NCBI RefSeq assembly: GCF_014196765.1
Contig: NZ_JACIEE010000002.1
Coordinates: 434,001-498,000 of the forward strand
Origin: Mycoplana azooxidifex
GTDB lineage: Bacteria > Pseudomonadota > Alphaproteobacteria > Rhizobiales > Rhizobiaceae
Reading direction: 5' to 3'
DNA: 64,000 nucleotides
The notes beneath the pieces were generated by a model. The model searched no databases. It had not been told where the DNA came from and worked only from the letters and a program-made list of their open reading frames with translations. Numbering within the stretch: position 1 is the stretch's first letter; each line of letters opens with the position of its first letter. Of this stretch, positions 1,215-24,433 are shown piece by piece. The position numbers and the translations under genes are program-made.

Positions 1215-2906
1215 ATGATTGACTGGTTCGTGAACACACTTCGTACCTATCCTGAAATTGCAATATTTCTATCCTTGGCCCTCGGGTATTACTTCGGCTC
1301 CTTTACTTACAAGGGACTCGGCCTTGGAGCTGTAACTGCCACGCTTGTAGCTGCCGTGATCATCGGTCAGATAGGGATCACGATTTCGCCCCCTCTCAAG
1401 GCGACATTCTTTCTGATGTTCCTGTTTGCGATCGGCTACGGAGTGGGGCCGCAGTTCGTCCGCGGCATCGCGAAAGACGGCATACCGCAGGCATTGTTCG
1501 CCGCCGTCGTTTGCGTCTTTTGCCTCGGCGCACCCTATCTTGCAGCCAAGTTCGCGGGCTACGACGTTGGATCCGCGCTAGGCCTTTATGCCGGTTCACA
1601 GACCATATCCGCGTCGATGGGATTGGGAACGGACGCGATCAATCGCCTTGGCCTGCCGCCGGAAGAAACCAAGCGGCTGCTCGATGCAATGCCGGTGGCC
1701 TATGCCGTTACCTATATCTTCGGCACCGTCGGATCGGCCATCGTGCTGGCACTGTTCGGTCCTGCGCTTCTCGGCATCGACCTGGAGGCGGAATGCAAGC
1801 GATACGAGGCCGAGTTCGGTGGCAAGAAGGAACTGGGAGGTGCCGGTACGGCCTGGCATCACTACGAGCTGCGCGCATACCGCGTGCGCGAGGGTGGGCC
1901 GGTCGTGGGAAAGACGGCTCGTGCAGCCGAATCCCTTATTCCCGAGCAGCGCGTGTTCATCGAGCGCATCCGCCGCGGCGGGAAAATCGAGGACGCGACT
2001 GCGGATACCATCATCGAGGCAGGTGACATCGTTGCGGTGGCGGGTCGGCGGGACGTTCTGGTGAGCCTGATCGGCCACGCGGCGGAAGAGGTCGATGACC
2101 GTGAACTGCTGGCGGTGCCGGCCGAGGGCGTCGATGTCCTGGTCACCAACAAGGAGGCCAACGGAAAGACGCTGGCCGAGCTGGCGCAATGGCCGTCATC
2201 GCGCGGGGTCTTCCTGCGCCGGATCGCTCGTGGCGCCACCGCGACCGAAATCCCGATTCTTCCGAACACGCAGATCCATCGCGGCGACATCCTGACGATC
2301 GTCGGACGCACGCAGGACACGGCCGCAGCTGCAAAGGCTCTCGGTGTGGCGGATCGTCCAACCGACGTTGCCGATGTTGCGTTCATCGGCGCCGCTATTA
2401 CGATCGGCGCCCTGATCGGTGCACTCGTCTACAAGGTGGGCGATGTACCGTTTACGTTGTCGACGTCCGGCGGCGCCTTGATCTCGGGACTATTCTTCGG
2501 CTGGTTGCGTTCCGTGCGGCCGAAATTCGGACGGATTCCGACGTCCACGGTCTGGTTCATGAATTCGGTCGGCCTGAACGTCTTCATTGCCGTGGTGGGC
2601 ATCTCCTCGGGACCGGGATTTGTAGCCGGCCTGCAGCAACTCGGCTTCAGCCTGTTTCTGTGGGGCATTTTTGCAACGACCGTGCCTCTGGTGCTCGCCA
2701 TGTATGTCGGGAAATACGTGTTCCGGTTCCATCCCGCCATTTTGCTGGGGTGCTGCTCGGGGGCGCGCACGACGACCGCTTCGCTCGGCATGATCAACGA
2801 CCGCGCCAAGAGCCAGATCCCCGGCCTTGGCTATACCGTCACCTATGCGGTCGGAAATACGCTGCTGACCATCTGGGGAATGGTTCTTGTGATGCTGATG
2901 ACCTAG
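1215..2906 (+). CDS. AspT-type amino-acid antiporter (AAE family), copy 1
   Basis: Protein of 563 residues with the AspT/YidE layout: an N-terminal block of membrane helices (about 1-180), two cytoplasmic TrkA-C/RCK-C domains (about 210-370, with [13 protein letters not shown] and [14 protein letters not shown]), then a second helix block. The family includes the electrogenic aspartate:alanine exchanger, which imports aspartate and exports the decarboxylation product. The start ATG at 1215 follows GAGGGGGGC. The frame stays open to a GTG/ATG about 110 bases earlier, but that extension is not hydrophobic and lacks a ribosome site. Tandem with a PLP decarboxylase (3093) and a paralogue (6022), all on the plus strand. 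The substrate is inferred from context only. Confidence 0.88.
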
Positions 2907-3092
2907 TCCATCGATCGCCCCTGGATTGTTTTGCACTTTGGAATTGGAGCGCTGCGGTGCAGCGTCGGGGTGTGCCGGGTGTCCAAGGGGAAACGCCTTC
3001 ACTTCGCTACAGCATTCGCAGCCGCGACACGTCCACGATGGCGATGCCTGGCCAGCTGAGTGTTCAATGAAAACCGACGTTGGGAGCGTACG

Positions 3093-5804
3093 ATGCCACG
3101 AAAGACCGCACGTGTTGACCAATTCCTGTTGATACATTCTGCACGTGCCGACAGTTGGCGCGAGATCACCACACTCGCCGACGCCTGGGCAGCCGACTGC
3201 GGCGACAGGGCGGTGCTTGAGGCGGCGCTTGCGGATATGGAAGCGGCGGAGGAATATCACGCCTATCCGGGGACGCGACTGCTGGCAGCACTGGCAGAAC
3301 GCATCGCGACAAACGATGCCGGCGGCACGGCGAAGCTCGCGCGCCGCATCTCCAACGGGCTGCTCACCCATGCCTATCGCGGGCGACCGGGCGAATGGGA
3401 TGTCCATGACGAGATGTCGGCGAGCGAGACGGCCGACATCATTCCTCACGGGGCGGGCGAGGCTGCAGGGCATCGCCCCTATTTCGAGGTGCTATTCGTC
3501 AACAGCCAGCCGGCCTCGCGGTGGGCCGCGTTCGCCACGGCGATCCGCAAGCTTCGCCGGCCGGAAGACACGTTCGTCTACGAACCCATCCTCGTCGGCT
3601 CCTTCGAGGATGCTTTCTGCGCCGTGGCGTTGAACCCCGATATCATTTCGGTGGTGCTTGCCGAGGGCTTCCCGTATCGGTCGCGCCACGATGCGCCGGT
3701 GCTACGCTCCGTGCTTGATCCGTTGGGCGAAACGGAGGGACCGGACATGTCGGCGCTGCGGCTCTCGCATGCACTCAAACGCATTCGGCCGGAACTCGAT
3801 GTCTACCTGCTGTCGGACCGCCAGGTCGAGAAGCTTGCCGGCGACCCGGCCGCCGATGCCGTGCGGCGCATATTCTACGCGGTCGAGGAGCCCCTCGAGT
3901 TGCATCTCGCCATCATGGAAGGCGTGCAGGAGCGCTACGAGACTCCGTTCTTCGACAACCTGAAGAAATATGCGCGCCGGCCAATCGGCACGTTCCATGC
4001 GCTGCCGATTGCCCGCGGAAAGTCGGTCTTCAGGTCCGGATGGATTCGCGACATGGGCGAATTCTACGGCCTCAACCTGTTCCTGGCAGAAAGCAGCGCG
4101 ACGACGGGCGGCCTCGATAGCCTCCTGGAACCCACCGGCAACATCAAGCGCTCGCAGGAACTGGCGGCGCGAGCCTTCGGCGCCGACCACGTGTTCTTCG
4201 TGACGAACGGCACCTCAACCTCGAACAAGATGGCCGTGCAGGCGTTGCTGGCGCCCGGCGACATCGCCGTGGTCGACCGAAACTGCCACAAGTCGCACCA
4301 CTACGGCATGGTGATGACCGGCGCACAGCCCTATTACGTCGAGGCCTTTCCGATGACGGAATACTCGATGTATGGCGCCGTGCCGCTCGCAACCATCAAG
4401 CGCGCGCTGCTGGCACTGAAGGCAGAGGGTCGTCTCGACCGGCTGAAGCTACTCGATCTGACCAACTGCACCTTCGATGGGCACATGTACAATGTCAGGC
4501 GCGTGATGGAGGAATGCCTCGCCATCAAGCCGGACCTCATCTTCCTCTGGGACGAGGCGTGGTCCGGGTTCGCCCGCTTCTCGCCATTCCTGCGTCCCCG
4601 TACCGCCATGGGGGCGGCAGCGGATATCGAGGAATGGCTGCGGGATCCGGCGTCGGTCACGGCCTATGAAAAGCAACGCGCGGACCTCGGCGACGACCCA
4701 TCCGACGAGGCGCTGCTCGCCGCCCGCCTGATCCCCGATCCGCGTCTCGTGCGTCTTCGTGTCTACCAGACCAATTCCACGCACAAATCGATGTCGGCGA
4801 TCCGGCAAGGCTCCATGCTGCTCGTCAAGGACGTGGATTTCCACACGGTGGAGGCGCAGTTCCACGAGGCGGTGTTCACGCACGCCTCCACCAGCCCGAA
4901 CCAGCAATTGATCGCCAGCCTCGACGTGGCCCGCCGGCAGATGGAACTCGAGGGCTATGGACTGGTGATGAACGCGATCGAGATCGGGCTCAAGATCCGC
5001 CGCGCTGTCAACGAACATGAGTTGATCTCGAAGTACTTCCACGTCCTCGGCGCCGACGCGATGATCCCCGCCGAATACCGCCAGTCCGGCTTTACCGATT
5101 ACCTTGCGCCCGGTACGACCTGGGCCACGGTGGTCAAGGCGATGCGGGAAGACGAGTTCTATCTGGATCCCACGCGCATGACGCTGGTCTGCGGAACGGC
5201 GGGCTTCGACGGCACCCAGTTCAAAGGACTACTGGCAAGCAAATACGACATCCAGCTCAACAAGACGTCGCGCAACAGCGTGCTGCTGCAGTCGAACATC
5301 AACAACACGCGAAGCGACGCCGCCCACCTCATCCGGGTTCTGGTCGAGATCTGTCACGGCATCGAGAAGCGCCTGGCCGATGGCGGGGAGGAAGAGCGCG
5401 CTGCCTTCGACGCCCGCGTCAAGTCGCTGATGACCGACGTGCCGGACCTTCCCAATTTCAGCCATTTCCATGAGCTGTATCGCAGTGACGCCGGGCGGAC
5501 GACGCCGGAGGGCGACATTCGCAACGCCTTCTTCCATGCCTATGACGCCTCGGTCTGCGAATATGTGCCGCTTGCCGGTGCCGAGTGCGACAGGCGGCTG
5601 CGCGAGGGACCGGAGATGGTATCGGCCAACTTCGTCATTCCCTACCCGCCCGGGTTTCCCATCATGGTGCCCGGCCAGGTGCTGACGCAGGAGACGATCG
5701 ACTTCATGCGCAAGCTGGATGTGAAGGAGATCCACGGATACGAGAAAATGAAAGGGCTGAAGCTGGTCAAACCTGACGCTGTCGCTGCCAGGACAAGGCG
5801 TTGA
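3093..5804 (+). CDS. Orn/Lys/Arg-family PLP decarboxylase, unusually long
   Basis: Protein of 903 residues; biodegradative Orn/Lys/Arg decarboxylases are usually about 710-760. Fold-type-I PLP features are visible: FFVTNGTSTSNK (cofactor phosphate region), DEAWSGFARF (the conserved Asp), and NSTHKSMSAIRQGS with the Schiff-base lysine near residue 565. A wing-like N-terminal domain (FEVLFVNSQP…) is preceded by roughly 110 extra residues. An acidic insert of about 50 residues comes just before the STHK motif. The ATG at 3093 has TGGGAG six bases upstream; an in-frame GTG lies at 3060. The gene sits between two AspT-type antiporters, which suggests a substrate/product exchange cycle that removes protons. 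Arginine, lysine, ornithine or another amino acid are all possible substrates. Confidence 0.85.
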   Translation: MPRKTARVDQFLLIHSARADSWREITTLADAWAADCGDRAVLEAALADMEAAEEYHAYPGTRLLAALAERIATNDAGGTAKLARRISNGLLTHAYRGRPGEWDVHDEMSASETADIIPHGAGEAAGHRPYFEVLFVNSQPASRWAAFATAIRKLRRPEDTFVYEPILVGSFEDAFCAVALNPDIISVVLAEGFPYRSRHDAPVLRSVLDPLGETEGPDMSALRLSHALKRIRPELDVYLLSDRQVEKLAGDPAADAVRRIFYAVEEPLELHLAIMEGVQERYETPFFDNLKKYARRPIGTFHALPIARGKSVFRSGWIRDMGEFYGLNLFLAESSATTGGLDSLLEPTGNIKRSQELAARAFGADHVFFVTNGTSTSNKMAVQALLAPGDIAVVDRNCHKSHHYGMVMTGAQPYYVEAFPMTEYSMYGAVPLATIKRALLALKAEGRLDRLKLLDLTNCTFDGHMYNVRRVMEECLAIKPDLIFLWDEAWSGFARFSPFLRPRTAMGAAADIEEWLRDPASVTAYEKQRADLGDDPSDEALLAARLIPDPRLVRLRVYQTNSTHKSMSAIRQGSMLLVKDVDFHTVEAQFHEAVFTHASTSPNQQLIASLDVARRQMELEGYGLVMNAIEIGLKIRRAVNEHELISKYFHVLGADAMIPAEYRQSGFTDYLAPGTTWATVVKAMREDEFYLDPTRMTLVCGTAGFDGTQFKGLLASKYDIQLNKTSRNSVLLQSNINNTRSDAAHLIRVLVEICHGIEKRLADGGEEERAAFDARVKSLMTDVPDLPNFSHFHELYRSDAGRTTPEGDIRNAFFHAYDASVCEYVPLAGAECDRRLREGPEMVSANFVIPYPPGFPIMVPGQVLTQETIDFMRKLDVKEIHGYEKMKGLKLVKPDAVAARTRR

Positions 5805-6021
5805 GCCTTGAGCAGGGACCGGCAACGCAGACCTCCCTGGATCGTTCTCGCCAGAGGGTATTGCGGCTTGCGCGCAGCCGGGGCGGTGCCGCGCACGGGA
5901 GCGGTTGCGATCCGGCTTGACATGCTGATCTGATACGAAGGTCTGGGAAGGGGTCGGCTGGCTCTCAGCGGTTGCTCTGAAGCACAAGCCGGTGGCCGTG
6001 TAAAAGGGGGCTGGTCTGGTC

Positions 6022-7710
6022 ATGGCTTGGTTGGAGCAATTCCTTGTAAAGTATCCCGAGCTAGCCGTGTTCCTCGCGATCAGCATCGGCTACCTGATTG
6101 GTGGCATCAAGTTCCGTGGCTTCGCCCTGGGGCCCGTTACCGGCTCGCTGTTTGCCGGGATTCTGATTGGGCAGTTTGCCCATGTGCCGGTGTCGGGCAC
6201 GGCAAAGTCGTTCCTGTTCCTGCTTTTCCTCTTCGGCATCGGCTATTCGGTCGGGCCGCAGTTTCTTCAAGCCTTGAAGCGCGACGGAATGAAGCCGGTG
6301 CTGCTGGCGGTGATCGTCTGCGTTTCGGGCCTCCTCACCGCCATTGTCGTAGCCAAGATACTTGGCCTCGATCCGGGATTTTCTGCCGGGCTCCTTTCGG
6401 GCGCGCTCACCGAGAGCCCTGCCATGGGCACGGCCACGGAGGCCATCAACGCGCTCCCCATTCCGGAGGCCGACCGGGCGCGGTTCGTGGCGCATATCGC
6501 AGTTGCGGATGCCGTCTGCTACGTGTTCGGAGCTGTCGGGGTGATCCTGTTCTGCAGCGCCGTCGGCCCCAGACTGCTTGGCATCGATCTGGCTGCCGAG
6601 GCGCTCAAGCTGGAGCAAGAGCTGGGTATTAGTCGGAAAGCACCGGGTGTGGAATCGGCCTGGCATATGTTCGAGATGCGCGCCTATCGGATCGCGGAGG
6701 GTGCGCCAATTGTCGGTCTGTCTCTGAGGGCCGCCGAGGAACGGTCTCCGGAACTCCGGCTTTTCGTCCAGCGCATCCGGCGCAATGGTGCCATACTCGA
6801 GGCTGAGCCGGATCTCGTGATCGAGCCCGGGGATGTCGTTGCGGTTTCCGGCCGCCGGGAGGTATTGGTCAATGTGCTCGAGGCGCGCGCCGAGGAAGTG
6901 GAGGATCGTCAGTTGCTCGATATCCCGGTCTCGATCGCTGACGTGCTCGTGACCCGCCCGGACCTTGGCGGTCGGAGCATCGATGACGTTACAAAGGAGG
7001 AATGGACACGGAGCGTCTATCTCCGCAGCATTTCGCGCGGCGGTCAGGAGATCCCCATAGCGCCAGGGATCAGGGTCGAACGTGGCGACATCCTGCGATT
7101 GGTCGGTCCGGAATCTCAAGTATCGCGCGCTGCCGAGCGTGTCGGCGTGGTCGTCGCGCCGACAACGGCCACAGATTTCTTCGTCCTCGGCCTTGCGATC
7201 TTCCTTGGCGGCCTTGTCGGCGTCCTCGTCACCATCCCGATCGGCGACATGCGGATCTCGCTCAGCACCAGCGTCGGGACACTGCTGGCGGGTCTTCTTG
7301 TGGGACATCTGCGCACCCGCTTCCCCTTGTTCGGCCGGATACCGGACGCGGCTGTGTCACTTATGACGGCGCTCGGCCTTGCGGCCTTCGTCGCGATGAC
7401 GGGCCTGCATGCCGGACCCGTTTTCGTATCCGCCATAGCCGAAGCGGGAATCGGCCTGTTGTTCGGCGGTATGATCGTCACCCTTGTACCCATGATCATA
7501 GGGCTTTACGCCGGTCGCTACCTGCTGCGCATGAACCCGATATTGCTGCTGGGGGGATTGGCCGGAGCACAAACGATGACGGCCGGCATGGCGGCCGTCC
7601 AGGACAGATCGGGCAGCACGGTTGCCGTTCTCGGCTACACGCCGGCCGTGCCGATAGGACACATCCTGCTGACTACCTGGGGAACGGTGATCGTCGGCAT
7701 CATGGCCTGA
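6022..7710 (+). CDS. AspT-type amino-acid antiporter (AAE family), copy 2
   Basis: Protein of 562 residues, paralogous over its whole length to the gene at 1215: matching first helix (FL…YPELAVFLAISIGYLIGG), GIGYSVGPQF, paired TrkA-C domains (AYRIAEGAPIVG, GDVVAVSGRREVLV) and a C-terminal helix block ending …ILLTTWGTVIVGIMA. The order antiporter-decarboxylase-antiporter, with gaps of 186 and 217 bases, suggests a single transcription unit or one regulon. The copies differ enough that they may handle different substrate/product pairs, for example one for the large decarboxylase and one for AspD at 11437. The ribosome site (AGGGGG at about 6005) is rather distant from the ATG. Confidence 0.88.
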   Translation: MAWLEQFLVKYPELAVFLAISIGYLIGGIKFRGFALGPVTGSLFAGILIGQFAHVPVSGTAKSFLFLLFLFGIGYSVGPQFLQALKRDGMKPVLLAVIVCVSGLLTAIVVAKILGLDPGFSAGLLSGALTESPAMGTATEAINALPIPEADRARFVAHIAVADAVCYVFGAVGVILFCSAVGPRLLGIDLAAEALKLEQELGISRKAPGVESAWHMFEMRAYRIAEGAPIVGLSLRAAEERSPELRLFVQRIRRNGAILEAEPDLVIEPGDVVAVSGRREVLVNVLEARAEEVEDRQLLDIPVSIADVLVTRPDLGGRSIDDVTKEEWTRSVYLRSISRGGQEIPIAPGIRVERGDILRLVGPESQVSRAAERVGVVVAPTTATDFFVLGLAIFLGGLVGVLVTIPIGDMRISLSTSVGTLLAGLLVGHLRTRFPLFGRIPDAAVSLMTALGLAAFVAMTGLHAGPVFVSAIAEAGIGLLFGGMIVTLVPMIIGLYAGRYLLRMNPILLLGGLAGAQTMTAGMAAVQDRSGSTVAVLGYTPAVPIGHILLTTWGTVIVGIMA

Positions 7711-7826
7711 TTTGCGCTGCATCGAACCACGCGTCCACGTGCAGGCTACACGCAAGGGTACGATGGCGTTGCGGCAACGCCGGTCACCCGGTCCCGCGCT
7801 ACGAAGAGCAGGGAAGAGGTCGATTA

Positions 7827-8873
7827 TCAGAAGTTCCGCTGGAAGCGAACGACGCCGCCCCAGTTCTTTGCCTCCGGCCCGTCCTTTTCATCCATGTCGT
7901 TTCGGTAGTTGAGTTCCGGTGTGATGGTGAAACCGGGCACGACCTTATAGGCAATGTTCAGCGCACCTTCCGCGTCGCCGCCCTCGTCGAAGTTGGCCGA
8001 GATGTTGATCGCCGCCTTGTCTGTCAGTTCATAGGTTCCCCCGACCCAAAGGGCCCAGTCGCCATCCCAGTTGGTGTAGACGTTCCGCTCGTCGCCATCC
8101 GTGTTCCACCCGCCCATGGCGAAGACAGAGACAGGCCCGAACGTTCCGTCCAGGCGAAGCTTCAGTGCGCCGGACTCTGTTTCGTCGACATAGGCACCGA
8201 CGAAACGGGCCTGGAAGACCTCCGCCTCGTAGCCAATCCCGCCGACAACGTCGGGCATATAGTTGTCGTCGCCGTCTACGGTCGGTTCGTTATCGCTATC
8301 GTCTTCGACCGATACGGCCAGAGACAGGCCCGTAGCACTTTCATAGGTGTAGCGGATCTGGTTCCGGCCGAAATCGCCGTAGTCGACATCGTACCAGTCG
8401 TTGATCGTGGCGCCGGCATCACCCATGAATTCTGTATAGAGCGTGTCGGAGAAACCGAGGCGGAAGCCCGCCAGCTCGATATACATGTTCTCCATGTTGA
8501 TGCTGGAGCCGGTGTTGTCGTCGCGGTTGATCTCGGCCTCCGAATAGGTCTTCAGCGCGCCGTATTCCGTATCGGCGGCTGTGCTGATGCGAAGGGTGAA
8601 GCGGGTGCGGGTGAACCAGGAGTCGCCGCCGCCGCCGGGGTAGGTGTTCTGCGGATTGACGTCACCGCCTTCGACGTCGAAGCGAACATACCCGCCGAGC
8701 TTGAGGCAAGTCTCCGTGCCGGGAATGTAGAAGTAGCCTTCGCCGAATGCGTCGCACACGCGAACATACTCCATCGGCTCGGGTTCGGCTGCGACGATCG
8801 CATCGGCAGCGTGCGCGCCGGAAACCGCAGCAAGCGCCGCTCCCGTGCACAGAAGAAAGCCCTTGAACTCCAT
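7827..8873 (-). CDS. Outer-membrane porin, Omp2b/RopA family
   Basis: Protein of 348 residues with a signal peptide (MEFKGFLLCTGAALAAVSGAHA) and the rhizobial/Brucella porin hallmark near the N-terminus (YVRVCDAFGEGYFYIPGTE, then C-LKLGGYVRFD). It ends in a terminal phenylalanine (VVRFQRNF), as expected for a beta-barrel recognised by the Bam machinery. The start is the ATG at 8873, preceded by GTGGAGGCAGAA. An upstream in-frame ATG would bury the signal peptide. It faces the antiporter gene convergently. Porins of this family pass small hydrophilic solutes, so this one could admit amino acids to the neighbouring exchangers; that link is inference. Confidence 0.9.
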   Translation of the reverse strand: MEFKGFLLCTGAALAAVSGAHAADAIVAAEPEPMEYVRVCDAFGEGYFYIPGTETCLKLGGYVRFDVEGGDVNPQNTYPGGGGDSWFTRTRFTLRISTAADTEYGALKTYSEAEINRDDNTGSSINMENMYIELAGFRLGFSDTLYTEFMGDAGATINDWYDVDYGDFGRNQIRYTYESATGLSLAVSVEDDSDNEPTVDGDDNYMPDVVGGIGYEAEVFQARFVGAYVDETESGALKLRLDGTFGPVSVFAMGGWNTDGDERNVYTNWDGDWALWVGGTYELTDKAAINISANFDEGGDAEGALNIAYKVVPGFTITPELNYRNDMDEKDGPEAKNWGGVVRFQRNF

Positions 8874-9143
8874 TTCTGCCTCCACTCCCTGTACGCGCCG
8901 ATTCGGCGGAAAGCTTAGCTTTAACCCGCTTTCAATTGGGCACAAGTTCGGAATTGTTCGCGAACGCCTTCGCCTTTCTCAGAAAAATTCACGAGCATGT
9001 AATATTGCCACCGATAACTACCTGAGGATGCTTCCGGTTGAAGCTCTCTACCAAAAAAATGGTGCCTCTTTTACTTTCATGCGCCGACATCGGCGCTCGG
9101 AGGAAACGCTCATGGGCCCAGCGATCGCACGATCCAGCCATCC

Positions 9144-10376
9144 TCAATGCCCGCCAAGCACCAGCGTCTGGATCGGAAGCAGTATCGCCTGCATGCGGAG
9201 GATCATCGCATGGACGAGCGCCACCGTGTCTACGACATGGAGAAACAGCCATCGGGAAGTACTGATATTCGGATCGTCGAGCGCATGGTGGTTGTTGGTG
9301 TAGGCGTTGGCGATGCAGCTCCCTCCGGGCGGGACGCCCTCCAGCCCTCCAGCGAAGAGCGGTTCCATGAAGACGGTGATTGTCCCGGGCTGTGCCAATT
9401 GCTGAACATCGATCAGCTGATCGGTGGGCCGGAGCTGCCCCGCGGCGATGACATCCTGGACCTGGGTGACCACGAGCGGGATGATGGAATACGGCTTGCC
9501 GATGCAGGTCGCCTCGCCAATCATGCCGACTTTCATGACCTGCGCCTCGATCTGGCCGAAGCCGGCAATCAAGGCAACGCGACCGGCCTCGGCGGGCACC
9601 AGAATGCCGGCGGGCCGCAGCATGGTGTTGACGACGTCGCCGGGGCGAAGCGTGAACTGTTGAACGGTGCCGGCCACGCCAGCACGTACAAGCGTCTTGT
9701 CCAGTTCCACCTGAGCCTGCGCCAGGGCGGCTTCGGCGCTGGCTTTCTGGGCGGGAAGCAGAGAGCTGATCTTGGTCTGCAGCGTCTGCTTATTTGCCGT
9801 TGCGGCATCGACGGCCCCCAGGCGTCCTTCGACCGCGACCCGAAGGCGCTCGATCTCCCGCACGGACACGACGTTTGCATTGCGCGCCATCAGTTCCGAC
9901 TTCGTTTCCAGTTCGTCCACCGCCTGCTGATAGGCACCACGCGCCTGCTGGATAAGTCCGTCCGCCGCCGCCAGCTCGGTCTGAGCGACAAGGGTCTCGG
10001 CCTCGATCTCGGCGATCTGCCGACGTGCCGTCTCGAGGGCTGCTTCCTGCTCGGAACTGTCGAGCCGGAAGAGCGGCGCCCCCTTCTCCACCGTCTGATT
10101 CAGTCCGACAAAGACTTCGGCCACGCGGCCGCTGGCCTCCGGCAGTATGCTGACCGTGCGGAAGATCGCAGTGACATTCTTGGTAGACGGGTGGAAGTAG
10201 AAGATCAGCGTGATCAGCGAAATGGTCAGCACGAGGCAGGCCGTGATCCCCCAGCGCAGCTCGTACCACATGCTGTAGAGCGTAATTTCCCGTCCGATCC
10301 GCTTGCCCTGAACGTAGCGACGGAACAGATAGTCCGGGAGGATCGTCAACAGGGAGCAGAGCATCAGCTCAAGCAT
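9144..10376 (-). CDS. HlyD-family membrane-fusion (adaptor) protein
   Basis: Protein of 410 residues with one membrane anchor near residues 45-62 (ITACLVLTISLITLIFYF), a biotinyl-lipoyl-like hairpin (VSILPEASGRVAEVFVGLNQTVEKGAPLF), a long coiled coil (about 110-230) and the second lipoyl half (VRAGVAGTVQQFTLRPGDVV). This is the YibH/YiaV type of adaptor. No ABC, RND or MFS pump adjoins it. Its partner is the small membrane protein just upstream (10380-10790), whose stop lies 3 bases before this ATG, so they are co-transcribed and probably co-translated. The reverse strand is also open over the same span but is a mirror frame. Confidence 0.85.
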   Translation of the reverse strand: MLELMLCSLLTILPDYLFRRYVQGKRIGREITLYSMWYELRWGITACLVLTISLITLIFYFHPSTKNVTAIFRTVSILPEASGRVAEVFVGLNQTVEKGAPLFRLDSSEQEAALETARRQIAEIEAETLVAQTELAAADGLIQQARGAYQQAVDELETKSELMARNANVVSVREIERLRVAVEGRLGAVDAATANKQTLQTKISSLLPAQKASAEAALAQAQVELDKTLVRAGVAGTVQQFTLRPGDVVNTMLRPAGILVPAEAGRVALIAGFGQIEAQVMKVGMIGEATCIGKPYSIIPLVVTQVQDVIAAGQLRPTDQLIDVQQLAQPGTITVFMEPLFAGGLEGVPPGGSCIANAYTNNHHALDDPNISTSRWLFLHVVDTVALVHAMILRMQAILLPIQTLVLGGH

Positions 10377-10379
10377 TGA

Positions 10380-10790
10380 TCAGACACCTTCTCCGCTTGC
10401 GCCTTCGTTTTCTTGCGGTCGGGAGACATCGTCCGGCTCTTGCTTGTCACGACCGGACAGTTTCTCGAGTGATGCTGCGATCGAAGTCATCGGCGTTGAG
10501 TAGTCCGGAAACTCGATGAAGGCCAGCAGCAGGGCCGCTATCCAGTAGATGTGGTTGTGGGTGAACAGAGCCAGCAGACACAGAACGGCCACGAGTTCCA
10601 TCTGCACCTTGCTGGTCCGGTGCGCCATGCGCTCGGGCAGGGCGTGGAGCTGAAAATAGAGATTGCCGATCGCGAGAACAGCCACCAGCAGGAAGATTGC
10701 GACGCCGATGAAAAAATAGTCGGTCTCACCTGGAGCGGTGATGAAGGCAGGCACGTGGCTGACAACGGCTGGGTGCATCGCCTGCGCCAT
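10380..10790 (-). CDS. Small inner-membrane protein, DUF3302/YiaW-like
   Basis: Protein of 136 residues with two or three hydrophobic segments (YFFIGVAIFLLVAVLAIGNL, then LVAVLCLLALFTH and IYWIAALLLAFI) and a charged cytoplasmic-looking tail rich in Glu and Asp. In enterobacteria, HlyD adaptors YibH and YiaV are each encoded beside a small DUF3302 protein (YibI, YiaW). The same pairing here supports the assignment more than the sequence alone does. It is the first gene of a two-gene minus-strand operon with the HlyD protein. Confidence 0.6.
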   Translation of the reverse strand: MAQAMHPAVVSHVPAFITAPGETDYFFIGVAIFLLVAVLAIGNLYFQLHALPERMAHRTSKVQMELVAVLCLLALFTHNHIYWIAALLLAFIEFPDYSTPMTSIAASLEKLSGRDKQEPDDVSRPQENEGASGEGV

Positions 10791-11436
10791 CTGGAATTCC
10801 TCGATGCAGTGAAGTCCCTAAATGAAAGATCAACACTAGTCCCGTGCAAGGTCAATAGCAGACCCAGCATCACCAGTCATGTTCCCCACATCTCAATCTT
10901 AGATTGTCGCAGGCTGGCGCAATCACTGAACGTGCAGAGTGAAGTCGTGTCGGCCCCCCGCCCCCACCGCCGGCCGGACAGACGTCGAAAAGATCTGAAA
11001 CGAAAGAACTTTTTGCATATGCCGTCAGAGGTCGCCTGTAACCGTGAGTGGACGGATCAGTTTTTCAAGCTCAAACTTTGCGCCATCGCTTTTGGCAAGT
11101 GTTAGCAAAGATACACCTTTGTCTGCACCCCGCAAGCTGCTACTATTCACTCTGACAAAGTCTAGGGGGTCTATCTGACGACGTCAGGCTTGCTTCATAT
11201 CGAATGAGCAGCGCACGCGCTGGATGCCACATTAATGTCGCCGACATTCGGCCGACAACCGTTCGTGGCGACGTACGCATAAGCATTGCAGAGAAGATTT
11301 CAGCCCCAAGCGGCATGGTGCCCAAGCGACATGGCGTCGGGGTGCGAACGGTTCTGCGCGCCCGCCGCCCGCCGCTTCTGGCATTTTCATTCCGGGCGCC
11401 GCGACGAAAGATCAACGTAGCTAGGAGGACGCGGCA
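10791..11436. promoter_or_regulatory. 646-bp divergent intergenic region
   Basis: No convincing gene. It must carry the promoters of the minus-strand DUF3302/HlyD operon and of aspD. A short palindrome CTGACG-A-CGTCAG sits at 11175-11187 and could be an operator. The ribosome site of aspD (AGGAGGA, 11423-11429) is strong. A small open frame at 11204-11473 overlaps the aspD start and is not supported. Confidence 0.35.
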
Positions 11437-13044
11437 ATGGCAGGGATCGACTATCGGGAATACGAGAAGATGAGTCCGTTCGAGATCAAGGATGGACTGA
11501 TCAAGCTTGCCAAGCGTAGCGCGCAGAAATCCGCCCAGGCGCTCCTCAATGCCGGGCGCGGGAATCCGAACTGGATCGCAACGGTACCCCGCGAGGGTTT
11601 CTTCCTCTTCGGCCAGTTCGCGCTGGTTGAATGCCGGCGCACGATGGACAACCCCATTGCCGGGCTTGCCGGCATGCCGCAGATGAACGCCATCGCCTCG
11701 AGATTCGAGGCGTGGCTGGAAAAACACGCCGACGCACCGGGTGCCGAGTTCCTGAAGAAAATGACAGGCTATGCCGTGAAGACGTTCGGCTTCAATGCGG
11801 ACGCCTTCGTTCACGAGCTTACAGATTCGATCATCGGCGACAATTACCCGGTGCCGGACCGCATGCTTGTGCACGCCGAACAGATCGCGCATCGCTATCT
11901 GATGTGGGCCATGGGCGACGAAGGCACCTCTGCCGGCAAGTTCGATCTCTACGCCGTGGAAGGCGGCACCGCCGCCATGTGCTACATTTTCAAGTCGCTG
12001 ATTGCGAACCGTATCCTGAAGAAGGGCGACACAATCGCGATCGGCACGCCGATCTTCACGCCATATATCGAGATCGCGGAACTGGAGGACTATGCCTTCA
12101 AGGCCGTCTACATCAAGGCGGCACAGGAGCACCGGTTCCAGTATTCGGACGAGGAGCTCAAGAAGCTTGAGGACCCGAAGATCAAGGCGTTCTTCGTCGT
12201 CAATCCGGGCAACCCAACCTCGATGGCGATCGATTCGCCGACGATGAAGAAGCTCGTCGACCTGGTGAAGAAAAAGCGTCCAGATCTGATTCTGCTGACA
12301 GACGACGTTTACGGCACTTTCGTGCCAAACTTCCGGTCGCTCCTCACGGAACTGCCGCACAACACGATCGGGGTTTATTCCTACTCGAAGTACTTCGGCT
12401 GCACGGGTTGGCGGCTCGGGGTCATCGCCATGCACGAAAAGAACATCATCGACGACATGATCGCCAAGCTTCCGGCCAAGGAACTCGAGGCGCTCGACAA
12501 GCGCTACATTTCGATCACGCTGGAGCCGCGCAAACTGAAGATGATCGACCGGCTTGTCGCCGACAGCCGGGACGTCGCCCTCAATCACACCGCCGGTCTG
12601 TCCCTGCCCCAGCAGGTCATGATGACCATGTTCTCGATCAGCGAACTGATGGATACCGAGAAAGTCTATCAGAAAGCCTGCATGGAAATCTGCAGCAACC
12701 GCCTCGCGAGCCTCCTCGAGGGACTGCCCCTGGATGTCCAGCCGAACCCCAACTTCGCCGCCTACTACGGGACGATCGATTTCGAGTTCTGGCTGAGGCA
12801 TTATGTCGGTGAGGACATGGTCCAATGGCTGAAGGCGAACGTTCATCCGCTCGACCTCGTCTATCGTCTGGCGGAGGATCATTCGATCGTCCTGCTCAAC
12901 GGCGGCGGCTTCGAAGCACCCAACTGGAGCGTACGCGTCTCGTTCGCCAACCTGAACGACGACGTGTATGACGATATCGGCCGCGCGGTGCGAGCGGTCG
13001 CGCGAGGCTATATCGATACGTTCAACGCTTCCCAGAAGAATTAG
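11437..13044 (+). CDS. aspD: Aspartate 4-decarboxylase (aspartate transaminase-like)
   Basis: Protein of 535 residues, the usual AspD size and longer than plain aspartate transaminases. It has class-I aminotransferase features: VVNPGNPTS, LLTDDVYGTF, and SYSKYFGCTGWRLG with the PLP lysine near residue 318. The N-terminus (MSPFEIKDGLIKLAKRS…LLNAGRGNPNWIA) is typical of aspartate beta-decarboxylases, which release CO2 and L-alanine from L-aspartate. In lactic acid bacteria AspD works with the AspT antiporter to build a proton-motive force. Two AspT-type antiporters lie upstream in this window, though not adjacent. The ATG at 11437 follows AGGAGGA at ideal spacing. Confidence 0.92.
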   Translation: MAGIDYREYEKMSPFEIKDGLIKLAKRSAQKSAQALLNAGRGNPNWIATVPREGFFLFGQFALVECRRTMDNPIAGLAGMPQMNAIASRFEAWLEKHADAPGAEFLKKMTGYAVKTFGFNADAFVHELTDSIIGDNYPVPDRMLVHAEQIAHRYLMWAMGDEGTSAGKFDLYAVEGGTAAMCYIFKSLIANRILKKGDTIAIGTPIFTPYIEIAELEDYAFKAVYIKAAQEHRFQYSDEELKKLEDPKIKAFFVVNPGNPTSMAIDSPTMKKLVDLVKKKRPDLILLTDDVYGTFVPNFRSLLTELPHNTIGVYSYSKYFGCTGWRLGVIAMHEKNIIDDMIAKLPAKELEALDKRYISITLEPRKLKMIDRLVADSRDVALNHTAGLSLPQQVMMTMFSISELMDTEKVYQKACMEICSNRLASLLEGLPLDVQPNPNFAAYYGTIDFEFWLRHYVGEDMVQWLKANVHPLDLVYRLAEDHSIVLLNGGGFEAPNWSVRVSFANLNDDVYDDIGRAVRAVARGYIDTFNASQKN

Positions 13045-13947: not shown

Positions 13948-14581
13948 CCGGTGCTGCATCAGCGAGCACGCCCTACGAACTCGTGGCACGGGACTAAGGC
14001 GCGTCGCGATCCTTTGGATTCGCTTTTGGCACTTTACGCCTTTGTTTTACTTTGGAAGGCACGCGCTAGACTGGCCGCCGATTCCGTTGGGGGTTTCCAA
14101 GGGCTGATCGTCCATACGGCGACATTGCTATTGCGGTGTTCAATGGGCGTCCGTCTCCGGACGCCCAAAGGTTGCCTATCTGCTACACATGACAGCAAGC
14201 CAAAGAGGCAGGCGGCCACCGGCACTTTTACACACATTTCATGGCTTAGCGGTTCAAAGGGTCAATGATCCACCGAATTGTTTCCTGGGGTCGGTAACAA
14301 CCAAATAGCGGACAGAGTGATCTGGGGCTAAGGCCACCTTCAACGCAGCGGACTACGAAGTCGGTCCACAGGTGACGGCGGTTATTGGGTATCGGAGCGA
14401 TTAGAGCTCCAACCTCCTTTGTGGGCGGTGGAATGTCCCGGAACCTCGCGACCGTGCTTGCGAAGTTGCAGGCCAACCACTTGAACATTGACGCTGGTCC
14501 AGCGCGCCTGTTCGAAAAGCTGCCTTGTACTCCGACCACGTCGGCGCGTAAAATCAGCAAGTAGTGGGGAGGGCGGGCAGC
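13948..14581. other. Intergenic region with a perfect hairpin
   Basis: 634 bases without a supportable gene. A perfect 9-bp stem with a 4-base loop (GGGCGTCCG-TCTC-CGGACGCCC) lies at 14145-14166; no T-tract follows on either strand, so it may be a factor-dependent terminator or an RNA element. The minus strand is open at 14246-14560, but its product is unfamiliar and it has no good start site. Confidence 0.4.
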
Positions 14582-15025
14582 ATGTTACTTCAGATCATCT
14601 CGGCCGCTGGTGTGTTGCTTACCACAATCTTTATTCACGGCACGGCAGTTATGCTACTGTTCCATATAGGTCAAGGTCCCCTTACCGGTACCCAGAAACT
14701 GGCCGCATCCGTTCGATTGGGCGTCACTTGCTTTTTTGTCATTGGATTCTTGATAGCGCACATTATCGAGATCATGGTGTGGGCGGCGGTGTACCGGCTG
14801 GTAGGCGAACTTCAGAGCTTTGAGGAGGCCGTGTATTTCTCGGCGATTACCTTCGCCACAATCGGGTATGGCGACATTACGCTATCTCCCGACTGGCGAC
14901 TTGCAAGTGCTATAGAAGGTGTGAACGGGATTTTGTTGTTCGGCTGGACCACGGCATTTCTTTTCAAAGTCTCTGAGATATGGTTCGCGCGGAGCGAGGT
15001 TCATCGGGATATCGCTCGATCGTGA
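14582..15025 (+). CDS. Two-TM potassium channel subunit (Ion_trans_2)
   Basis: Protein of 147 residues: membrane segments near residues 2-25 and 40-62, a pore helix (FEEAVYFSAITFAT), the K+ selectivity filter TIGYGD, and a final inner helix (GILLFGWTTAFLFKVSEIW). This is a minimal tetrameric channel without a cytoplasmic RCK domain. The ATG at 14582 follows GGAGGG. A broken copy of this gene lies at 530-838. The AI-2E-type permease gene begins about 120 bases downstream in the same direction. K+ uptake or leak next to acid-stress and envelope genes is in keeping with pH or osmotic adjustment, but regulation is not visible. Confidence 0.88.
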   Translation: MLLQIISAAGVLLTTIFIHGTAVMLLFHIGQGPLTGTQKLAASVRLGVTCFFVIGFLIAHIIEIMVWAAVYRLVGELQSFEEAVYFSAITFATIGYGDITLSPDWRLASAIEGVNGILLFGWTTAFLFKVSEIWFARSEVHRDIARS

Positions 15026-15145
15026 AACAAGGACTTGCACCATGAAATGCGCCTCTGGGAGAACGTGAACCGACTTGCCCAACGATGGCGCCTGTTCCTT
15101 GCCGGGAGGGTCTTCGGCTTCTGGTTCAATTCGGGGGGTGATGTC

Positions 15146-16234
15146 ATGCAAGAGGTGCATAGTGATGGGGGTCAACGCCAGCATGTCGTAGAGACCGCCT
15201 TGGCATTGTTGCTGATGTCCCTGTTGATTGCCGCATCTTTCTGGGTGTTGCTGCCCTTTGTCGGCATCCTGACCTATGCGGTGATCCTGTCCATCGCCAC
15301 CGCGGGGCTGTTTGATCGATTGGTCGAACTGCTGGACGGGAGACGAAAGCTCGCAGCCGTGATTTTCGGCGTCGTCACCGCGGCCATCACCATCGTGCCG
15401 CTGATCTATCTCTGCTCATCCATTGCCAGCTATCTGAGTGTCGCCGAGGCATGGCTCAGGGAGGCCGGTACGCGCGGTATCCCCAACCTTCCCGGTTGGC
15501 TTACGGGACTTCCGCTGGTCGGCGACGACGTGGCGGCGTTCTGGCAGAACCTGCAGCGCGATGGCCTGGTGTTGCTTGAGCGATACCAGCCGCAACTCGC
15601 GGCGATAGGAAAGTGGCTCCTGGCTCTGGGGGCAGGCCTCTTGTTCGCTGTCCTTGAAATTTTCGCGGGTGTGATCGTGGCCGCGATATTTCATGCCTCG
15701 CGCGACCGCGTGCTGGGGTACATCACCGCCATCCTCGAGCACATCGTCGGGCCGAGCGGAAGAGAAGACCTGGCTGCTGCGGGGAAGGCCATACAGGGCG
15801 TAGCAGTCGGCGTCGTTGGAACCGCCGTGCTCGAGGGGGTGCTGGCCTGGATCGGTTTCGCAGTCGCAGGCGTTCCAGGAGCCGTTGCGTTGGCCGCAGC
15901 GACGTTCTTCCTGGCCGTCATCCAAATCGGGCCCTTGCTGGTTTGGGTGCCGGTGGCAATCTGGCTGGGTGCCGAGGGGCAAACCGGTTGGGCAATTTTC
16001 ATGGTCGTATGGGGGATTGTTGCGCTGATGGGGACCGACACCTTCGTCAAGCCCATGCTGATTGCGCGCAGCGGCGAGCTACCGATGCTCGTGCTCTTCA
16101 TCGGCGTCATCGGCGGACTGGCTGCCTGGGGTTTTACCGGCATGTTCATCGGTGCGACGACGCTCGCCGTGCTCTGGACCGTGTTGCAGCTTTGGCTTGG
16201 CGCAAAAGGAAAACGGTCGGCCCCGGCCGCCTGA
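15146..16234 (+). CDS. AI-2E/PerM-family membrane transporter
   Basis: Protein of 362 residues with about eight membrane helices in the AI-2E family pattern: an N-terminal pair (LALLLMSLLIAASFWVLLPF…), a long amphipathic stretch (about 85-165), and the C-terminal helix cluster with GLAAWGFTGMFIGATTLAVLWT. Members export small solutes or act as Na+/H+ antiporters; substrate cannot be deduced. The ATG at 15146, after GGGGGG, starts just before the first helix. A longer frame from 15035 would add an atypical 37-residue leader. It meets the minus-strand DUF2955-like gene tail to tail. Confidence 0.8.
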   Translation: MQEVHSDGGQRQHVVETALALLLMSLLIAASFWVLLPFVGILTYAVILSIATAGLFDRLVELLDGRRKLAAVIFGVVTAAITIVPLIYLCSSIASYLSVAEAWLREAGTRGIPNLPGWLTGLPLVGDDVAAFWQNLQRDGLVLLERYQPQLAAIGKWLLALGAGLLFAVLEIFAGVIVAAIFHASRDRVLGYITAILEHIVGPSGREDLAAAGKAIQGVAVGVVGTAVLEGVLAWIGFAVAGVPGAVALAAATFFLAVIQIGPLLVWVPVAIWLGAEGQTGWAIFMVVWGIVALMGTDTFVKPMLIARSGELPMLVLFIGVIGGLAAWGFTGMFIGATTLAVLWTVLQLWLGAKGKRSAPAA

Positions 16235-21068: not shown

Positions 21069-22763
21069 TCAGTGGTCCATAGGTGTCGCGGTTGGCCCTT
21101 CAGCGGCGCCGTATGTTTCCAGGTATCTATGTATTCCCACTCGTGCATTGGCGAGTATTCGGTCCGCGCCCAGCCGGTCTTCAAACCCGGATGCGCGTAA
21201 ATAGTCCGCCACGTCCGGATTCAGGCCGGCGAGCCAGACGGTCACGCCTTCTTCTGCCAGGCGACGCTCCCCCTCGATCATCACCTGCAGCGCCGAGTAC
21301 TCGATATCGAAGACGCGGCTGAGATCGAGGATGAGCACCCGCGGTTTGTTTTGAGTCACGACCTCCCGGATTCGCTCGCTGACCTGCTCTGCATTAGCGA
21401 AGAACAACCTGCCTTCGGGCCGCAGCACCACAAGCCCCTCGAAGGTCTCGTCACCCGGGTGATCGGAAGACAGAGGTCGCAGGATATCCTCCCCCCGCAT
21501 GCGACCGATCACGTGCACGCGCGGGTGGGCGGCCTGACTGGCGAGGCCGAGTAGCGAGAGCGCGATCGCGACGACAATGCCCTGAAGAGTGCCGAAGACA
21601 AGCACGCCGAGGAACGCGGCAATGGCCCAGTGGAATTCCATTCGACGGGTCTTGCGGATCGCGGCGAATTCCATCGGCTTGATCAGGCCGATGGAATAGA
21701 CGATCACGATGGCGGCGAGTACCGCCTGCGGCAAAAGCCCCAGCAGCGGGGCCAAAACCAGCATCGTCGCCGCGGAGACGGCTGCCGTGACGAGCGACGC
21801 CTTTTGCGTTCGCCCACCCACCGCGCGCACCACCGCCGTCTGCGATGTTCCGCCACCGGCCGGCATGGCGCCAAAGAAGGCGCCGGACAGGTTGGCGGCA
21901 CCGGTGGCCAGAAGCTCGCGATCGCCCTTGATTGGCGGCTCGCCAGGAAGGGCGAAAGCACGTCCGGCGGCAATTGTCTCGGTAAAGCTCATCAGCGCGA
22001 TGCCCAGTGCGCCGGGCAGGAGTTGCACCGCGAGGTCGAGTGTTGGCAGTGTAATCGACGGCAGCCCCCGTGGAATGAAACCGACGGTGGCAACCCCTGC
22101 GGCGCCGAGCCCCAAAAGCCAGGACATGGCGATCCCGCCAGCAACAACCGCAAGCGGAGCCGGCGAATGCGGCAGCGCCCGCTCCAGGAGCAGAAGCAGA
22201 ACTAAGGCGGCAATACCAACGACCAGCGTCATCGCCGAGGCCTCGGGGAGGTGCCCGGCAATGCTCAGGACGTCGCGAAAGAAACCTTCCTTCGCGATGT
22301 GGATCCCAAGCAGCTTCGGCACCTGGTCGAACACGATGACGAGCCCGATCCCAGCTTTGAAGCCCGTCAGTACGGGCAGTGAGATGAAGTTGGCCACGAA
22401 CCCGAGATGCAAGACCGAGGCCAGGATAAGAATACCTCCGGTGAGGGCTGCGAGCGTCGCCGTAGCGACAATCAGCCCCTGGGCATCTCCGTCCGGCACA
22501 GCCATGCCGAGGTCCGCACCTACGAGGATCGCCAGTGTCGCAGTGGAGCTTACATTCAGCACCCGCGACGTGCCGAGCAGCGCATAGACGATCATCGGAA
22601 CGAAGGCGGTGTAGAGCCCGGCAGCCACCGGCAATCCCGCAACGGTCGCATATGCCATCGCTTTCGGCAGCACGACGGCGGCGGCGGTCAAGCCTGCGAC
22701 GAGATCCGGGCGTATCCCGGCATTGCTCCCGCTTTCCGACTTGTCGGAGCCAGCAAGTGGCAT
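21069..22763 (-). CDS. SulP-family anion transporter with STAS domain
   Basis: Protein of 564 residues with the SulP signature at the N-terminus (GLTAAAVVLPKAMAYATVAGLPVAAGLYTAF), about twelve membrane helices to residue 410, and a C-terminal STAS domain (about 435-545; VLILDLSRVFDIEYSALQVM). SulP proteins move sulfate, bicarbonate, dicarboxylates or other anions; substrate is not evident here. A bicarbonate or dicarboxylate role would suit the nearby decarboxylase system. GGAGAG precedes the ATG at 22763. Confidence 0.9.
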   Translation of the reverse strand: MPLAGSDKSESGSNAGIRPDLVAGLTAAAVVLPKAMAYATVAGLPVAAGLYTAFVPMIVYALLGTSRVLNVSSTATLAILVGADLGMAVPDGDAQGLIVATATLAALTGGILILASVLHLGFVANFISLPVLTGFKAGIGLVIVFDQVPKLLGIHIAKEGFFRDVLSIAGHLPEASAMTLVVGIAALVLLLLLERALPHSPAPLAVVAGGIAMSWLLGLGAAGVATVGFIPRGLPSITLPTLDLAVQLLPGALGIALMSFTETIAAGRAFALPGEPPIKGDRELLATGAANLSGAFFGAMPAGGGTSQTAVVRAVGGRTQKASLVTAAVSAATMLVLAPLLGLLPQAVLAAIVIVYSIGLIKPMEFAAIRKTRRMEFHWAIAAFLGVLVFGTLQGIVVAIALSLLGLASQAAHPRVHVIGRMRGEDILRPLSSDHPGDETFEGLVVLRPEGRLFFANAEQVSERIREVVTQNKPRVLILDLSRVFDIEYSALQVMIEGERRLAEEGVTVWLAGLNPDVADYLRASGFEDRLGADRILANARVGIHRYLETYGAAEGPTATPMDH

Positions 22764-23170: not shown

Positions 23171-24433
23171 ATGTTAAGCACACTCACGAACACGCTTGAG
23201 CTCAAAAAAATCATAAGCTTCGGGCGGGTTTCTAGTAGAGACAGATCAATTCGCAGCTGTTTCCTACGCGAAATATTCGCGGTGGCTGTCCTTTCTGCCG
23301 TCGCAACTACCCCCTCGTGGGCCCAGGGCATGGACGACCCGAGCACGCAGTACAGCAAGGAAGCCATGCAGCAGGCGCTTGAGACCAGGCAGCAGTACGA
23401 TGTCCATGGCCTGCGCTTCGACACCGACAAGTCGACTCTTCAGCCGGGCGCGGAACCGCTTCTCGATGACATAGCGACGGCGCTGAAGAATTTCCCCGAT
23501 TGGAGCTTGAGAATTGTCGGCCATACCGATGCGAGCGGCAGTGCGGAAACCAACGAACGTCTTTCCCTTGAGCGTGCCGACACGATCAAGGTGGCGCTGG
23601 TTGACCGAGGGATCGACCCTGACAGGTTGATGGCGGGCGGCGCTGGGCAGGATCGGCCGATCGCCAGCAATGAGACAGAGGAAGGAAAAGCCCTCAACCG
23701 TCGCGTCGAACTCCTGCGGGTGACCAACTCGCCCGAAGCCAGGAAACTGCTCAAGGCCATGTCCGACTATCTGGCAGCCCAGAAGGCCCTATCGTTCAGT
23801 TATGATGCCAATCTCCAGGTCGTCACCAACACCGAACAAAAACTTGGGCTGGCAAGTTCGGGCACCGTGATCCTCAGTCGGCCCGACAAGGTGCACACGA
23901 CACGTTCTGGCGGGTTTGTCGAGAGCGAAGCCTTGTTTGACGGAAAGATGCTCACGCTCGTTGGAAAGAACGTCAACAAGTACACGCAAGTCGAAATGCC
24001 CGGCACGGTCGATCAGCTGATAGACGAGCTGAAGGACAAGCACGGACTGCCCTTGCCGGCCGCCGACTTGCTGATGACCAACGCATATGACGAACTGATG
24101 CAGGGTGTCTACGATTCAAAGGACCTGGGAAGCGGCGTGGTCAATGGCCACGAGTGCGATTCTCTTGCCTTCCGCAAGGACGATGTGGATTTCCAGATCT
24201 GGGTCGCCCACGGCGAACAGCCATTCCCTTGCCGTTTGGCCATTACCTCCAGGGAGGTCAAGGGTGCGCCGGAATACACGGTTCAGATCAGAGACTGGAA
24301 GTCCGGCGACGCGGTCATGCTGGATGATTTCTCTTTCAAGAACCCGACAAATGCCGAAAAGATCGATGTGAACGACCTCAAGCAGAACCTCAGCGAATTG
24401 CCGGGGAACCTCGTCCTGGGAGATGGAAAATGA
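23171..24433 (+). CDS. OmpA-like domain fused to DUF2092
   Basis: Protein of 420 residues. A signal-like segment (EIFAVAVLSAVATTPSWAQG, about 35-55) follows a long N-terminal leader, so the true start may be internal. An OmpA peptidoglycan-binding domain occupies about 75-195 (LRFDTDKSTLQPGAEPLLDDIA, IVGHTDASGSAETNERLSLERA, NRRVEL). Residues about 200-415 fit DUF2092, a periplasmic LolA-like beta domain (FSYDANLQVVTNTEQKLGLASSG). The fusion suggests a wall-anchored periplasmic protein that handles a hydrophobic ligand or lipoprotein. The next gene overlaps its stop by four bases. Confidence 0.75.
   Translation: MLSTLTNTLELKKIISFGRVSSRDRSIRSCFLREIFAVAVLSAVATTPSWAQGMDDPSTQYSKEAMQQALETRQQYDVHGLRFDTDKSTLQPGAEPLLDDIATALKNFPDWSLRIVGHTDASGSAETNERLSLERADTIKVALVDRGIDPDRLMAGGAGQDRPIASNETEEGKALNRRVELLRVTNSPEARKLLKAMSDYLAAQKALSFSYDANLQVVTNTEQKLGLASSGTVILSRPDKVHTTRSGGFVESEALFDGKMLTLVGKNVNKYTQVEMPGTVDQLIDELKDKHGLPLPAADLLMTNAYDELMQGVYDSKDLGSGVVNGHECDSLAFRKDDVDFQIWVAHGEQPFPCRLAITSREVKGAPEYTVQIRDWKSGDAVMLDDFSFKNPTNAEKIDVNDLKQNLSELPGNLVLGDGK

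Follow-up and report, generated by a model that had tools for sequence, protein, structure and literature searches.

Two putative decarboxylation/exchange cycles in Mycoplana azooxidifex, one built on an uncharacterised long Orn/Lys/Arg-fold decarboxylase

The window studied here, a 64,000-nucleotide stretch of the Mycoplana azooxidifex genome (contig NZ_JACIEE010000002.1, positions 434,001 to 498,000; G000:C2:434001-498000 in our set; genome of 5.88 Mb in 29 contigs), carries a gene for a long decarboxylase of the Orn/Lys/Arg (OKR) fold, hereafter DC, between genes for two exchangers of the AAEx (AspT) family, T1 and T2, and further on a gene for an aspartate 4-decarboxylase, AspD. We propose, with a rough probability of 0.55, that the region encodes two interleaved decarboxylation/exchange cycles, DC with T1 forming one of glutamate/γ-aminobutyric acid (GABA) type and AspD with T2 one of aspartate/alanine type. 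In the first, the substrate entering through T1 would be an acidic amino acid, glutamate(1-) being the likeliest, with the neutral product GABA moving out in exchange, and DC would decarboxylate the imported amino acid in the cytoplasm, using up one proton. In the second, AspD would convert aspartate to alanine, and T2 (or T1) would swap aspartate(1-) for alanine(0). As an anionic amino acid would enter and a neutral product leave, each turn would bring one negative charge inward; with protons consumed as well, both cycles should raise the internal pH and/or build a proton-motive force. Bacteria withstand acid by cycles of this kind, and a role in acid resistance is proposed here. Electrogenic Asp(1-):Ala(0) exchange coupled with AspD is described for AspT in PMC9508256, and an electrogenic cycle for DC/T1 is suggested by analogy with it.

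A decarboxylase/exchanger cycle is the best reading of these genes. An earlier sequence-only reading had described two full-length AspT-type exchangers flanking an OKR-family decarboxylase and a dedicated aspartate 4-decarboxylase beyond them. Its gene calls stand: both exchangers pass the TIGR03802 aspartate-alanine antiporter equivalog cut-off (546.95 bits; scores in Table 1), the middle gene matches PF01276, and AspD exceeds the TIGR03801 equivalog cut-off of 435.1 bits over profile positions 1-520 of 521. AspD starts 3.7 kb after the end of T2, with porin, HlyD-like and weakly DUF3302-like genes on the minus strand in between. We also agree with that reading on the Rhizobium-type genome.

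Linkage of DC to exchangers and AspD

Even samples of genomes were drawn from the Rhizobiaceae (the family sample, 297 genomes), the order (347) and the class (385); a sample of 61 relatives was used as well. In the family sample, DC matches at E 1e-100 or better occur in 25 genomes, 18 of them at 61-100% identity (clade 1) and seven at 47-52% (clade 2). An AAEx exchanger lies 37-239 bp from DC in all 18 clade-1 genomes, the window included. No AAEx was found anywhere in the six clade-2 stretches fetched out of seven (genome G630 is outside the fetched set, and the clade-2 stretches L116, L118 and L119 end early at contig ends), nor in nine further clade-2 stretches, eight from the class sample and one from the relatives. 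The coupling therefore belongs to one clade of the enzyme. An intermediate sequence 54% identical to DC (L111) has a distant AAEx gene less than 1 kb upstream, on the opposite strand. Two clade-2 relatives (L022:9833-14072 and L026:10088-14279) show the long OKR subfamily in other surroundings, with ABC transporters, a C45 peptidase and a gene labelled 'biotin carboxylase' as neighbours.

AspD follows the same clade. It is present in 31 genomes of the family sample, namely 15 of the 18 with a clade-1 DC versus 16 of the 279 others (Fisher p 3e-14, the genomes being related and so not independent events), and in 14 of the 18 it lies in the same ~20 kb stretch as DC. The co-occurrence in relatives that the earlier reading had proposed as a check is thus conserved, for the adjacent AAEx as for AspD. 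Stretches with AspD and without DC hold an AAEx gene in all 19 fetched cases; the AspD stretches L149, L151 and L157 come from genomes that carry DC elsewhere. In L147, L148, L149 and L150, which lack DC, AspD is itself the gene enclosed by a pair of AAEx exchangers, the two being of different kinds. An operon of AspD and an AspT homologue in Zymomonas is up-regulated by acetate, according to PMC4189746; this agrees with the AspD/AspT half of the region serving under stress.

Beyond the even samples, 80 named genome loci were fetched by DC, and their DC-AAEx counts are not an even sample: an AAEx gene lies within 500 bp in 70 of them, none within 10 kb in seven, and three are cut by contig ends. 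They come from Alpha-, Beta- and Gammaproteobacteria and, for a few other phyla, from metagenome-assembled genomes (MAGs). The named loci and the sampled genomes overlap in part, L078 and L133 being one instance of a shared sequence. Neighbour maps exclude matches under 120 amino acids, and an AspD fragment with which L072 ends is lost in this way.

The seven loci without a nearby AAEx (five from Bradyrhizobium, together with Rhizobium cauense and Ignatzschineria) count against a fixed partnership. They would fit a loose stress island in which common regulation holds DC and the exchangers together, while the DC product has some other use, as osmolyte or signal, with no exchange. The recurrence around DC of unrelated envelope and stress genes such as SulP, HlyD, PPK2 and DUF3300/DUF2950 fits it as well. 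Yet AAEx is directly adjacent in 18 of 18 clade-1 genomes and AspD is present in 14 of 18 stretches, whereas every other island gene tested is found in at most 10 of the 18 and, in the same even sample, in none of the six clade-2 stretches; besides, Acetobacter, Comamonas, Lysobacter and Alcaligenes carry DC-AAEx with few or none of the island genes. We therefore regard mere co-regulation as very unlikely.

Exchanger types and the exchange of DC for GadB

In a tree of 124 AAEx proteins, T1- and T2-type exchangers form separate clades with different partners. The T1-type clade holds a group of 22 proteins (20 rows), all adjoining DC; under the length filter, AspD is missing from the stretch for 19 of them and present for three (L134, L135 and L069). 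T2-type proteins adjoin AspD in loci of the order DC>T1>AspD>T2 (L122, L130-L132 and L078, the last being the same contig as L133). Since the T1 type recurs with DC in stretches that hold no AspD and the T2 type stands beside AspD, two cycles are probably interleaved. These clade-wise partners are the ground on which we propose to pair DC with T1 and AspD with T2, with the reservation that T2 begins 217 bp after DC in the window. Of the doubled exchanger around one decarboxylase that the sequence-only reading had put forward, the layout holds, both exchangers adjoining DC, while the partnership is probably different; as a general rule, a doubled AspT for one decarboxylase was rejected. A third, deeply separate type, Tb, takes the place of T1 in Bradyrhizobium, Roseomonas-like bacteria and Lysobacter, and adjoins DC in 27 of 27 Tb proteins, all from loci fetched by DC.

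The AspT/AspD cycle of Tetragenococcus halophilus has its counterparts in AspD, T1 and T2, which belong to the same two families, but the window adds a second, unrelated decarboxylase with an AAEx partner of its own. Arginine 76 in TM3 of AspT is reportedly implicated in substrate transport. In contrast to AspT, this position is glycine in T1 and serine in T2; glutamate or glutamine also occur there in AspD-linked AAEx proteins, and it is no strict family mark. It proved too variable, also among AspD partners, to serve as a substrate marker and was dropped. Glutamate transport by an AAEx protein is plausible, as the family is said, in PMC9527358, to include a glutamate exporter.

The loci were scanned for Escherichia coli acid-resistance genes, and the exchangers, rather than DC, were then used as queries. 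One genome of the family sample, the source of L145, has T1, T2 and AspD and no match to DC. In L145, an otherwise similar island, a GadB-type glutamate decarboxylase gene comes directly after T1 and in the same orientation, with 136 bp between the matched parts and ~40 bp between the longest open reading frames. The family sample has 26 full-length T1-type places with at least 53% identity: these adjoin DC in 18 cases, AspD without DC in four, GadB in one and none of these in three; two of the last three have GadB ~9-10 kb off on the same contig. A survey of the 347 genomes of the order with the GadB-linked Tb of L178 as query (E limit 1e-150; survey genome G421 is L110) gave 12 Tb-type places in 11 genomes, adjacent to DC in nine, to GadB in two (L199 and L200), to neither in one (L209) and to AspD in none. 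L178 itself, from a third genus in another family, has a GadB-Tb-AAEx locus, and L207 repeats this three-gene layout with DC instead of GadB. GadB thus replaces DC beside the same exchanger types in four loci, and in all four it passes TIGR01788 (cut-off 380.4 bits; 535.0 in L145, 524.9 in L178, 517.9 in L199 and 515.5 in L200). Nested inside the DC-linked Tb clade is a separate group (support 98) made up of the GadB-linked Tb proteins. On a Cupriavidus plasmid (L194), a GadB that passes TIGR01788 has SulP nearby and a T1-type gene ~1.8 kb away; this T1-type gene (L194:6001-7685) runs over two overlapping frames and is perhaps broken or affected by a sequencing error.

The simplest reading of these layouts is that DC and GadB do one job beside Tb and T1. 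The likeness to GadB/GadC would be one of function only: DC has an OKR fold and no TIGR01788 match at E 0.001, and T1, T2 and Tb belong to AAEx and not to the GadC family.

Several observations weigh against it. T1-type exchangers stand beside AspD without DC not only in the four family places mentioned but also in Caballeronia (L193) and Ruegeria (L195), so that T1 could be a plain Asp:Ala exchanger. T2-type exchangers adjoin DC in the window and its closest relatives, and, with R76 not conserved, transport substrates cannot be read off the exchangers. L138 has, one after another, GlsA (opposite strand), GadB, GadC, DC and AAEx, while L106 has GadB directly upstream of DC, either of which may mean redundancy or a different DC substrate. 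In the Tb survey, six of the nine DC loci come from one genus and both GadB loci from another, so the independent events are fewer than the loci. GadB matches reach E 1e-60 or better in 17 family genomes; among these, AAEx is adjacent in two (L145 and L178) and further off in two (L180 and L181), and GadC homologues occur in the stretch in five (L138, L179, L182, L190 and L192); in L179 a GadB relative 74% identical sits with a GadC-like antiporter and a glutaminase. Because of the T1-AspD pairs, the DC genes beside GadB or GadC and the small number of GadB genomes with adjacent AAEx, the change of decarboxylase is suggestive and not proof.

It also leaves real weight to a reading in which all four genes work on aspartate, DC being an aspartate α-decarboxylase that yields β-alanine and T1 an Asp/β-Ala or Asp/Ala exchanger. 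This would agree with the pairing of T1-type exchangers with AspD where DC is absent, with the TIGR03802 score of T1 and with residue changes in DC (see below) that fit any acidic substrate. We consider it unlikely overall, given that the Tb partners of DC are beside AspD in none of 12 places and beside GadB in two, in addition to L178, and that T1 adjoins GadB in L145.

An AspT-family gene of Parabacteroides (L196:6001-7698) precedes genes for aconitase, isocitrate dehydrogenase and citrate synthase, and the annotation of that stretch includes no decarboxylase.

Residues of DC and its probable substrate

By sequence, the nearest solved structure to DC is Rv2531c (9n0o; E 1.4e-216), aligned over residues 56-909 including the long N-terminal part, and the same entry is its best Foldseek match (36% identity, TMt 0.93). 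The two differ at K321 of DC, which is alanine in Rv2531c (PDB 9n0n, 9n0o, 9n0p). The activity of Rv2531c is not known according to a 2026 review (PMC12910592). Among enzymes whose activity is known, the structure searches place AdiA, LdcI and SpeF nearest. DC shares the OKR fold with AdiA, CadA and SpeF at 26, 26 and 22% identity, but it is ~160-200 amino acids longer, has lost acidic positions and has an AAEx partner instead of an antiporter of AdiC, CadB or PotE type.

We aligned 51 sequences, 39 of clade 1, eight of clade 2, one intermediate and the three E. coli enzymes AdiA, CadA and SpeF. The residues that bind pyridoxal phosphate (PLP) are conserved in this alignment (K576, the lysine of the SxHK motif, H410, D498 and W501). 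At four columns the three E. coli enzymes all have an acidic residue and the DC of the window a non-acidic one, Q873 being the invariant case: it replaces CadA E663, AdiA E708 and SpeF E671 and is glutamine in 48 of 48 long-family sequences. Likewise, N734 replaces CadA E526 and SpeF E532 (AdiA itself has T571) and is asparagine in 48 of 48. CadA E526 and E663, we presume, belong to the negative patch lining the channel. Such a patch of negative residues lines the channel of OKR decarboxylases according to PMC4832331. Conversely, 16 columns are basic in at least 97% of clade 1 and basic in none of the three E. coli enzymes. From these we chose R319, K321, R582 and R738, which lie in or beside motifs near the PLP lysine or the acidic positions; all four are invariant, and AdiA, CadA and SpeF have no basic residue there.

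Together with the exchange of DC for GadB, these changes make it probable that DC acts on an acidic amino acid, with glutamate favoured, and not on arginine, lysine or ornithine. Of the earlier label 'Orn/Lys/Arg decarboxylase', the fold is right and the function probably wrong. If DC were instead a true decarboxylase of arginine, lysine or ornithine, and AAEx exchangers had been taken over to carry the basic amino acid and its amine, this would explain the PF01276 fold, the conserved PLP residues and the nearest relatives of known activity. This reading seems quite unlikely to us: DC matches six NCBIfam arginine, lysine and ornithine decarboxylase models and reaches the cut-off of none (best 169.8 bits versus 968), acidic positions are replaced and basic ones gained, homologues of AdiC, CadB or PotE occur in one of 144 loci scanned (L105), and the other decarboxylases seen beside T1 or Tb are GadB or AspD. 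L105 itself, from a Burkholderiales MAG, has the order T-DC-T-AspD with a PotE-like antiporter and a glutaminase nearby.

The residue argument has two weak points. The four basic positions are a choice out of 16 columns of this kind, and that they lie in the pocket is conjecture. Moreover, the residue changes occur also in clade 2 (8 of 8), which has no AAEx partners, so they do not by themselves name the substrate of clade 1. In the AlphaFold model of DC (mean pLDDT 81), the active-site loops 307-323 and 337-359 fall under 50, and we therefore claim no pocket geometry. Taken with these reservations, the proposal that DC is an OKR-fold glutamate decarboxylase and T1/Tb are AAEx glutamate/GABA exchangers, making up an acid-resistance system that shares no component with GadB/GadC, is a tentative one, to which we give a little less than even odds. 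Such a system would extend across Alpha-, Beta- and Gammaproteobacteria, and in the window a complete aspartate/alanine cycle would accompany it.

The surrounding island and wider implications

The genes that recur around clade-1 DC code for SulP, HlyD with a small partner, AI-2E, an ion channel, PPK2, the DUF3300-DUF2950 pair, a cation exchanger (Cax) and DUF2092; one representative of each gene cluster was scanned. The window carries those for SulP, HlyD, the HlyD partner, the ion channel, AI-2E and DUF2092 (Table 1). Bradyrhizobium loci add a histidine kinase, response regulators and a Crp-type regulator, and porins are seen again in some related loci. Judged from these genes, the neighbourhood looks like a stress island. 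HdeA was considered as a mark of the island and dropped, being found only in L019 and weakly in L053.

Table 1. Genes of the window discussed in the text, with the matches that identify them and their frequency among related loci.
Gene product	Position	Strand	Match or frequency
T1, AAEx (AspT-family) exchanger, proposed DC partner	1215..2906	+	TIGR03802, 699.8 bits
DC, 914-amino-acid OKR-fold PLP decarboxylase of a long uncharacterised subfamily	3060..5804	+	PF01276 (OKR_DC_1), E 2.8e-69
T2, second AAEx exchanger, proposed AspD partner	6022..7710	+	TIGR03802, 575.5 bits
Porin (Porin_2)	7827..8945	-	PF02530, E 2.6e-86
HlyD/EmrA-like membrane-fusion protein	9144..10376	-	NCBIfam PRK10476 and 8a0101, both below cut-off; 36/85 loci
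Small membrane protein paired with the HlyD-like gene	10380..10790	-	Weak PF11742 (DUF3302), 18.2 bits versus cut-off 32; 15/85 loci
AspD, aspartate 4-decarboxylase	11437..13044	+	TIGR03801, 772.5 bits
Ion channel (Ion_trans_2)	14564..15025	+	PF07885; 19/85 loci
AI-2E family membrane transporter	15035..16234	+	PF01594; 23/85 loci
SulP anion transporter with STAS domain	21069..22763	-	PF00916, PF01740; 27/85 loci
OmpA + DUF2092 periplasmic protein	23171..24433	+	PF00691, PF09865 (residues 1-277); 8/85 loci

The reading frames of T1, DC, T2 and AspD are all open and full length. The longest frame of T1 begins at 1104; its first 37 codons (1104-1214) are probably non-coding, because the annotated homologue in L018 is matched in length to a start at 1215. 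DC has a possible alternative start at the ATG at 3093, and its OKR major domain is matched in two stretches. A scan of positions 900-13500 for promoters and terminators gave no excess over shuffled sequences (promoter-like 2 versus a mean of 3.4, terminator-like 13 versus 10.2). Elsewhere in the window, a second HlyD-type gene (17308-18426) adjoins a gene for a membrane protein with a weak DUF2955 match (16290-17318), both on the minus strand, and the two may form another efflux pair.

DUF3300 and DUF2950 genes lie near DC-AAEx in 27 and 23 of 85 loci, respectively (for example L034:1-1452 and L067:3740-4672). According to PMC4653623, the two genes lie together and were induced in root-nodule bacteria in two RNA-seq studies, with no clue from their neighbourhood; their linkage to DC-AAEx now gives the pair a named neighbourhood.

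In a search of open full-text literature, the matches covered AspT/AspD, lysine, arginine and ornithine decarboxylases and Rv2531c, and neither an OKR-fold glutamate decarboxylase nor a DC-AAEx pair was found described. If our proposal is true, plant-associated, acetic-acid and environmental bacteria carry misassigned genes, now annotated as 'decarboxylase' or 'Orn/Lys/Arg decarboxylase', that would encode an unrecognised glutamate (or aspartate) acid-tolerance system. Castellaniella MT123, as reported in PMC12915299, has a homologue of OKR decarboxylases, and glutamate decarboxylation was inferred for it although GadB/GadC are lacking; a DC-type system would be a candidate for such cases, and this homologue may possibly belong to the same clade. 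For the long OKR subfamily as a whole, whose solved member has no known activity, the proposal would offer a lead to function.

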